Part shown: piece after piece, positions 25,246 to 47,277 of the stretch | How positions within the stretch are numbered: position 1 is the stretch's first letter | How the letters are laid out: every line of letters starts with the position of its first letter | NCBI GenBank assembly: GCA_949927415.1 | Contig: CATLFB010000002.1 | Location: forward strand, 310,001-374,000 | Direction: 5' to 3' | Source of the DNA: an uncultured Candidatus Melainabacteria bacterium | GTDB taxonomy: Bacteria; Cyanobacteriota; Vampirovibrionia; Gastranaerophilales; Gastranaerophilaceae | DNA: 64,000 nt | Notes under the pieces: model-generated | Database searches by the model: none | Told to the model about the DNA's origin: nothing | The model's input: the letters and a program-made list of their open reading frames with translations, nothing else | Made by a program: the position numbers and the translations under genes

Positions 25246-25274
25246 TTGTTACAATTCGGAATTTCATTTATAAT
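25246..25274 (+). promoter_or_regulatory. Promoter of pilin-like gene 1
   Basis: TTGTTA at 25246-25251 and TATAAT at 25269-25274 with 17-base spacing. It lies 33 bases before the ATG of the poly-G pilin gene, which has AAGGAG as its ribosome site. Confidence 0.65.
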
Positions 25275-25307
25275 CAATTTGTACAACTTTAAAATAAGGA
25301 GCAACGT

Positions 25308-26136
25308 ATGAAAAAGTACATTATCACTGAATTTCAGGGGGGGGGGGGCAACTAAGAAGCACACCTCTCAAAGGTTTGAGGAAAATTTAGCCGCAAAAAA
25401 TCTTTCACTATGGCGCACTGCCATTTTTGATTTTTTAGAAAGATTTGAAAAACATCCGGCATTTACTCTGGCAGAAGTTCTTATAACTCTGGGGATTATA
25501 GGAATAGTTGCGGCGATGACTTTACCCGCGATTATCGGCAACAGCAAAAAAGTCGAAGCGTCTTCAAGATTGAAAAAATTCAGTTCATCTATGTCGCAGG
25601 CGCTTTTAATGGCGCAGATTGAAAATGGCGATATGAACGATTGGGAATATGGCGGGAAGACAGTAACAGATGAAGATGGAAATCATGATTATGAAGCAAA
25701 CGGCAAAATAACAAAAGATTTTTTCATGAGATACTTGGCTAAATATTTTAACTATACAACAATTCTCGACGGAAAAAATGCTATTCTTGATGATGACGGT
25801 GAAATTCAGACACCTGCAAATAATACAACGATTTATTTTGAAGATAGTTCTCAGTTAATAATTTTTAATGGCAATTGTATGGATTTAATTTTTGATGTAA
25901 ACGGTGATAACAGGCCGAATTTGAGTGGGCGGGACCGATTTCGATTTCTTTTTTGTCCTTTAAAAAATTATCGGGCAAGAAATTGCGGGAATACTGCATT
26001 TTGTTCTTACATGGCCCAACTTTACAAAACTCGCGAATCTGCACTTGCCGCATGCAAAGTCAATGCTGTAACTTGTGCGCGGCTTCTGGAAATCGACAAT
26101 TGGGAATTTAAAAAAGATTATCCTTACAAGTTGTAA
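25308..26136 (+). CDS. Prepilin-like protein 1, interrupted by a 12-G tract (off phase)
   Basis: The SD-supported ATG at 25308 (AAGGAG upstream) reads MKKYIITEFQGGGG then AAC TAA, so translation stops after 15 codons. The pilin body is in another frame: after the tract it reads KKHTSQRFEE, then FTLAEVLITLGIIGIVAAMT, a class III signal region, and a C-terminal domain ending near 26136 with several cysteines (CSYMAQLY, ACKVNAVTC). One G fewer (11) or two more (14) joins the frames. In that state the leader is about 51 residues, longer than normal, with Ala before the cleavage Phe. No in-frame ATG, GTG or TTG lies between tract and pilin domain. A downstream-only start (ATG 25516) would cut the signal region. 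Confidence 0.75.
25337..25348 (+). repeat. Poly-G tract (12 G) in pilin-like gene 1
   Basis: A run of 12 G directly after ATTTCA in an AT-rich genome. It lies in the coding start of the pilin gene, ten codons after the ATG, so a one-base change in length switches the reading frame. Confidence 0.95.
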
Positions 26137-37130: not shown

Positions 37131-38004
37131 ATGAAAAAGCACACTATTACTGAATTTCAGGGGGGGGGGGGCACCTGTAACTAACGCTCCTGTTGGGTTT
37201 TCGCCTAATTTATTTGGCGTTCAAAGAGCCTTTACTCTCGCTGAAGTTCTGATAACTCTCGGCATAATCGGAATTGTTGCTGCGATGACACTGCCTTCCT
37301 TAATAGGGCATTACAAGCAAAAGGCTCTTCAGGAGCAATTTAAAGTTTCATATTCGCTTTTGCAGCAGGCGTTTTTAAAAATTGAGGCTGACTGGGGTTA
37401 TACGCCCAACTGTTATTATTGGGATACAAATCCCTATGGAGGTCAGCAGTGTGTTGAATATAAAGAAAACGGTGATTGTAATAAATGGGTTCTTGAAGAC
37501 GGCAGTGCGCTGCCAAAGGACTACAACGGGTTAATGGGAGATTGTTCGGCTGTTTACGGCGCGTTGGAAAAAACATTGCAGGTTATAAGCAAATGTGAGG
37601 GGCAGGCTTTTGCAAAAAATTGCATTCCGGAGTATGAGGGTTTGGATACTGTCACAAAGAGCAATAATCCGGATTTGAGCGATACCGAAGCTAAGAGTGC
37701 AAATGCAGGCTGTGCCGCATTTTTTAAAGAAAGACTTCTCACTACCCAAACCGCGTATGTCTACAAAAACGGAATGATTATGATACCTTATAATGTGACA
37801 AGTTATCCGATAATTCTTGTTGATATTAACGGCAAGAAAGGACCGAATAAATGGGGACATGACCTTTTTGCTTTCCAACTCCGCGGAAGTATGAAAACCT
37901 CTCTTAAAGTCAGCGCTTCTGATCGCTGTTGGACCGTTGAAAAAGGCGGAATTTCAACAAAAGAAATGCTTGAAAATATGTACGGCGTAAAATATACGAA
38001 ATAA
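37131..38004 (+). CDS. Prepilin-like protein 2, interrupted by a 12-G tract (off phase)
   Basis: The ATG at 37131 (GGGAG upstream, promoter at 37068) opens MKKHTITEFQGGGG then TCN and a TAA. As in pilin 1, the pilin frame lies one base away: after the tract it reads APVTNAPVGFSPNLFGVQ and FTLAEVLITLGIIGIVAAMT, then a C-terminal domain of about 240 residues with many Cys. Again 11 or 14 Gs would join the frames. In that state the leader is about 33 residues long with Ala before the cleavage Phe. ATG 37285 would start after the signal core and is an unlikely true start. The gene faces CysS and shares its terminator. Confidence 0.75.
37160..37171 (+). repeat. Poly-G tract (12 G) in pilin-like gene 2
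   Basis: Twelve G at the same position in the gene as in pilin 1, after the same GAATTTCA context, so both genes share a mutable start module. Confidence 0.95.
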
Positions 38005-47264: not shown

Positions 47265-47277
47265 GGGGGGGGGGGGG
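47265..47277 (+). repeat. Poly-G tract (13 G) at the edge of repeat C
   Basis: Thirteen G between AATTTCACGC and CGTCAGAAGACGG. In other repeat copies the corresponding spot reads AATTTCACATTAACCGTCAG, so the G run replaces a short segment at a module joint. It is outside any supported gene. Confidence 0.9.

Follow-up and report, generated by a model that had tools for sequence, protein, structure and literature searches.

The pilin 1 locus occupies positions 25246–26136 on the + strand of the window, the 64-kb stretch of DNA analysed here. A sigma-70-like promoter (TTGTTA-17-TATAAT, 25246–25274; 10/12 consensus match) is followed by the Shine-Dalgarno (SD) sequence AAGGAG (25296–25301) and an ATG start codon (25308–25310), and the SD-ATG-tract layout of the locus is common to its paralogues. 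The promoter claimed by the earlier sequence-only reading is present as a site, but promoter-like sites in the window show no excess over chance (5 observed vs 4.1 expected). The ATG opens a short ORF of 15 codons (MKKYIITEFQGGGGN; 25308–25355) that starts with MKKYIITEFQ, whose final Q codon contains the first letter of the G-tract (CA-G12), and ends with GGC AAC and the stop codon TAA (25353–25355). The G12 tract (25337–25348), defined by sequence and G-run count, is the putative switch of the gene.

The pilin 1 frame begins with GCA at 25348, remains open to the TAA at 26134–26136 and is reached from the ATG by the loss of one G or the gain of two. It encodes a leader (ATKKHTSQ...EKHP) and the pilin core AFTLAEVLITLGIIGIVAAMT, which begins at 25459; the mature part starts at 25462. 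The class III (type IV) prepilin signal core (25459–25524), an A followed by FTLAEVLITLGIIGIVAAMT, matches PF07963 and TIGR02532. No ATG, GTG or TTG was found in the pilin 1 frame between the tract and the core, so an automatic gene caller would retrieve only a truncated ORF (25516–26136). A single-base change in tract length is enough to connect the start codon with the pilin frame, or to disconnect it, and the gene is intact in other respects. The anatomy given by the sequence-only reading (AAGGAG, ATG, 12 G, a stop 15 codons in and the core in another frame) is exact by coordinates, and its statements that 11 or 14 G would join the frames and that no in-frame start lies between tract and core also hold.

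The assignment of pilin 1 as a prepilin-like protein is based on its N-terminal cleavage/methylation motif (PF07963, 22.6 bits with a cut-off of 21.2; TIGR02532, 19.0 bits with a cut-off of 16.3). The genome also encodes a prepilin peptidase (PF01478, 27.9 bits at C1:251224; cut-off 26.5) and contains four matches over cut-off to the T2SSE-type assembly ATPase (PF00437). The motif, the peptidase and the T2SSE-type ATPases are shared with type IV prepilins and type II pseudopilins. Unlike in those systems, about 80 paralogues are present here, and the leaders are tens to hundreds of residues longer upstream of the cleavage site. Comparison of the pilin 1 body with a 59%-identical homologue from a relative (genome G004) gave a dN of 0.32 and a dS of ∼3.4, which is near saturation, and on these sequences purifying selection acts on the pilin 1 body.

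A second copy of the start-tract-pilin design is found in the window at 37131–38004 (+ strand). Its short ORF (MKKHTITEFQGGGGTCN; 37131–37184) ends at a TAA (37182–37184), its G12 tract (37160–37171) has a phase offset equal to that of pilin 1, and its pilin frame (37171–38004), identified by a profile match, is likewise reached by −1 G or +2 G. The window contains 13 overlapping matches to G runs of at least 9, against 0.03 expected from shuffled sequences, and three long G tracts, namely G12 at 25337, G12 at 37160 and G13 at 47265. The G13 run (47265–47277) adjoins an alanine-racemase-like gene amid short repeats (TACGTACGTAGTACC) and has no neighbouring pilin.

The stretches around pilins and tracts were then examined in the source genome, a Gastranaerophilales assembly of 2.18 Mb in 22 contigs. 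A pilin N-terminal query matched 87 places at E ≤ 1, the majority below 1e-8, and the genome contains roughly 80 pilin-like genes. It also contains 64 G runs of at least 9, mainly G12 (38) and G11 (14), most of which sit shortly past an SD sequence and ATG and upstream of a pilin core. Using a pilin HMM built from the same genome to find cores downstream of tracts, 41 tracts with a downstream pilin core were identified, of which 39 leave the pilin frame uninterrupted. In all 39 of these genes, whose G or C runs are at least 9 long, the pilin frame does not match that of the start codon chosen by SD score; 36 need −1 or +2, and 3 need +1 or −2. With random phase, the probability of this outcome would be (2/3)^39, or ∼1e-7, although the phase counts come from paralogues of shared ancestry that are not independent. 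One divergent pilin-like gene with a G10 tract (C5:168466) is in frame, and many further paralogues lack a tract altogether and begin with a short leader of the usual kind. In six pilin genes, the tract is a C run with the same offset, which indicates that the homopolymer matters rather than the codon and disfavours an effect specific to the G strand.

Several other features were observed in the source genome. An 18-base G run lies between two genes at C1:388501. The contig ends at C5:6, C7:6, C16:95 and C18:95 fall at near-identical start-leader-G12 units, a pattern expected where repeats break an assembly. Some pilin leaders (e.g. L003, L006 and L090) contain a duplicated core, FTPQKAFTLAEGATHVETSAKKCAHAFTLAEVLITLG.

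The OFF phase extends to relatives. Among 164 tract pilin genes from 13 genomes, 90 need −1 (or +2), 56 need +1 (or −2) and 18 are ON. The in-frame share (18/164, 11%, with 146/164 OFF) is well below the one third expected by chance, and random phase was rejected on this basis. In the genus of the source genome, 100 genes divide into 80 that need −1, 12 that need +1 and 8 that are ON. Members of the genus are only 72–79% identical in ispD, yet most share the SD-ATG-tract-pilin layout. The modal tract differs between genera: G12, ON at −1, in the source genus; G10, ON at +1, in the genera of genomes G034 and G155; and G13, ON at −1, in that of genome G022. Two of these genera therefore need a shift of −1, and the other two a shift of +1. 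In genome G034, where G10 is ON at G11, 33 of 40 genes are OFF by the same offset and 6 are ON, with C10 and C11 versions counted. Although the modal length is genus-specific, the commonest state is OFF, at a distance of a single base from ON. A simple preference for length 12 is insufficient as an explanation because G13 tracts in the source genus mostly hold the same OFF phase (8 vs 3).

Across the family, 150 of 191 genomes carry a G run of at least 10, with up to ∼129 per genome, the pilin context being established in the inspected genomes only. A tract-independent in-frame start with an SD sequence is present in 17 of 63 genes in other genus members and in 1 of 37 in the source genome. 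In genome G023, the tract ORF stays separate from the pilin frame and lies upstream of a pilin with its own start; at three of its loci (L119, L128 and L136), the short tract ORF reads MQKLSIERIS-G11-ATD*. A pilin 1 orthologue beside ispD was not found in 13 genus relatives, in which the match stops with ispD (72–79% identity). No pilin relatives were found on viral contigs, which contained four pattern matches.

Tract length differs between near-identical copies. A G12 locus in genome G006 (L124) and a G13 locus in genome G012 (L138) are 99% identical over 200 nt and belong to two species. Within G006, a G12 copy (L227) is OFF and a near-identical G11 copy (L146) is ON. Within G034, a G10 copy (L352) has a near-identical G11 counterpart that is ON (L392), and two L388 copies with an identical leader peptide have G10 and G12. 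These pairs are paralogues and one cross-species pair in relatives rather than isolates of the source species. Judged from these pairs, tract length changes while the flanks stay nearly constant, which argues that the tracts slip.

The reading frames around the tracts point to selection. The pilin frame is open through leaders of ∼10 to >200 codons, some of which resemble translated repeat sequence; it is open through the tract in 39/41 genes of the source genome, 40/41 in G034, 18/24 in G012, 17/22 in G155 and 0/3 in G023. The remaining two frames of the open leaders contain stop codons at 6–10% per codon, a figure that covers only genes preselected as open. In the OFF frame, a stop codon occurs within six codons in 48 of 54 cases, against 28.5 expected from synonymous recoding, and in G034 in 18 of 19 cases, against 8.4 expected. 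No such excess over synonymous recoding was found in G155, and in the source genus the third frame showed none (9 vs 9.1). A reading of the tract genes as degenerate, or of their phase as an assembly or base-calling artefact in which 12 was called for 11, would draw on the error-prone nature of homopolymers and on the MAG origin of the named Gastranaerophilales records found by the scan. Tract lengths in such records are probably a population consensus. However, many species with separate assemblies show the same offset, at lengths of 10–15, the pilin frame is rarely closed in the source genome (2 of 41), dN is far below dS and the OFF-frame stop is enriched; these findings disfavour both pseudogenes and base-calling error and make this reading extremely improbable.

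The early stop and the OFF phase in 146/164 genes could also be produced by programmed recoding, in which the DNA length is fixed, the OFF frame is normal and RNA-polymerase slippage or ribosomal frameshifting supplies a little pilin at a steady level. The excess of early stops in the OFF frame would fit a recoding site, and the offset survives an adjacent substitution that extends the tract (TTCA-G12 and TTC-G13 are each off by one). As in known transcriptional slippage genes, which involve A/T runs and IS elements (PMC1088944), a homopolymer joins two frames; unlike in those genes, the run here is G or C and the required direction varies among genera. Programmed transcriptional slippage uses A/T runs of ∼9 or more, and in the Escherichia coli and Buchnera transcriptomes the slippage insertions all fell in A/T runs, G/C runs being reported not to share this tendency (PMC5574713). 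Programmed ribosomal frameshifting would combine one fixed direction with a stimulatory signal. Against recoding as a whole, two genera require a shift of −1 nt and two require +1 nt. Moreover, C runs can take the place of G runs, an in-frame phase is seen in ∼11% of genes and near-identical copies differ in length. The RNA-polymerase slippage route raised by the sequence-only reading, which accords with the fixed OFF phase and early stop, is weakened by the behaviour of G/C runs and the genus-dependent direction and is the less likely route. We consider it unlikely that dozens of pilins owe a steady, low expression to recoding at G12 or C11 tracts of fixed length, with a selected stop, a direction that differs among genera and no DNA switching.

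The tract-bearing unit is separable from the pilin body. The two closest homologues of the pilin 1 body (in genomes G004 and G009) have no tract, which suggests that the switch has been gained or lost separately from the pilin, and further members of the same body family in the source genome and G009 carry one. Two tract units with flanks that are 84% and 96% identical are located on bodies of only 32% identity. In addition, some relatives' leaders hold an apparent older SD and ATG just before the core (e.g. KEGFMKKSGFTLAEV in L134). The start-leader-tract unit therefore appears to have become attached to a variety of pilin genes. The sharing of similar 5' units by unlike bodies, tract presence uncoupled from the body and several contig ends at tract units would also suit a silent archive, in which OFF pilins donate to an expressed pilin by recombination and the G run would act, as at Neisseria pilE, as a site of recombination or of a G-quadruplex. 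Donors in such an archive would need neither an SD sequence and ATG nor leaders kept open in a frame that can be joined, some copies are ON, and C-run versions hold the same offset; a silent archive is thus very unlikely.

The G12 tract of pilin 1 is probably a slipped-strand phase switch of the simple sequence repeat (SSR) type on a type IV prepilin-like gene that is OFF by default, one of ∼40 in the genome. As in SSR switches, the homopolymer lies near the coding start and is longer than expected by chance. With the default 12 G, translation from the SD sequence and ATG would end a few codons past the tract. If replication dropped one G (11 G) or added two, the start would be joined to the pilin frame, giving a prepilin whose N-terminal leader is unusually long. 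Prepilin peptidase presumably removes this leader, in which case the tract-encoded residues would be absent from the mature pilin. Because the leader-plus-tract unit can be gained or lost apart from the pilin body, many different pilins would come under the same kind of switch. We infer that switching occurs within cells, that a minority of cells express any one pilin and that the cleaved product is displayed on the surface.

The phase-variable locus proposed by the sequence-only reading stands insofar as slippage is the best reading of the 39 genes, the open frames, the copies that differ in length and the tracts in surface-glycan genes; the phase is non-random and OFF by default, which stochastic switching as first proposed did not include. 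The recurrence of the layout throughout the genome is likewise absent from that reading. The OFF state of 39/39 genes here and 146/164 overall, with the early OFF-frame stop, indicates a default-OFF switch. Some other tracts of the source genome lie in a surface-glycan cluster (C2:177–184 kb) whose genes were judged by eye to be glycosyltransferase-, pyruvyltransferase- and acyltransferase-like. G/C runs of 11–12 are located in or at the ends of glycan genes at C2:177647, 180800 and 183289 (L041–L043 and L110), and an acyltransferase-like C-terminus in the cluster appears out of frame at a tract. Default-OFF slippage best accounts for the recurrence of the design, the one-base distance in both directions, the use of G and C runs, the copy length differences, the ON minority and the glycan-cluster tracts.

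Neisseria pilC and opa have few SSR switch loci, located in the leader region. They resemble the present genes in that the repeat falls where a surface protein's cleaved leader or signal peptide is encoded; unlike these few loci, ∼40 pilin paralogues are involved here, with a long prepilin leader. Campylobacter jejuni poly-G/poly-C loci are similar in having many G/C tracts in surface genes that are turned ON or OFF by single-base slippage, and 29 loci with tracts of 7 or more are found in strain NCTC11168 (PMC4965091). In contrast to C. jejuni, mainly one family (pilins) is involved here, with a shared type of 5' unit and tracts mostly of 11–12, and one genome contains 64 runs of at least 9 with the consensus OFF almost everywhere. 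Campylobacter tracts switch at ∼1e-3 per division (PMC4965091); if rates here were similar, the 39/39 OFF genes and the ∼80% in one phase in the genus would imply either that OFF is selected or that a strong attractor acts on tract length. PCR slippage led to a 20–35-fold over-estimate in the same study. Two MutS-family genes are present in the genome, and MutS may lower slippage rates, so slippage does not have to be extreme.

No paper on phase variation in Gastranaerophilales or Melainabacteria was found in a search limited to an open-access library. Here, 39 pilin genes with the same type of switch are found in one gut genome from the non-photosynthetic sister group of Cyanobacteria. Gene callers may truncate tract pilins, which may therefore be under-annotated. 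The genes appear to form a large surface-fibre gene library, silent by default and switched on at random. If switching does take place, individual cells would display small, randomly drawn subsets of an extensive pilin repertoire whose tracts are one base from ON.
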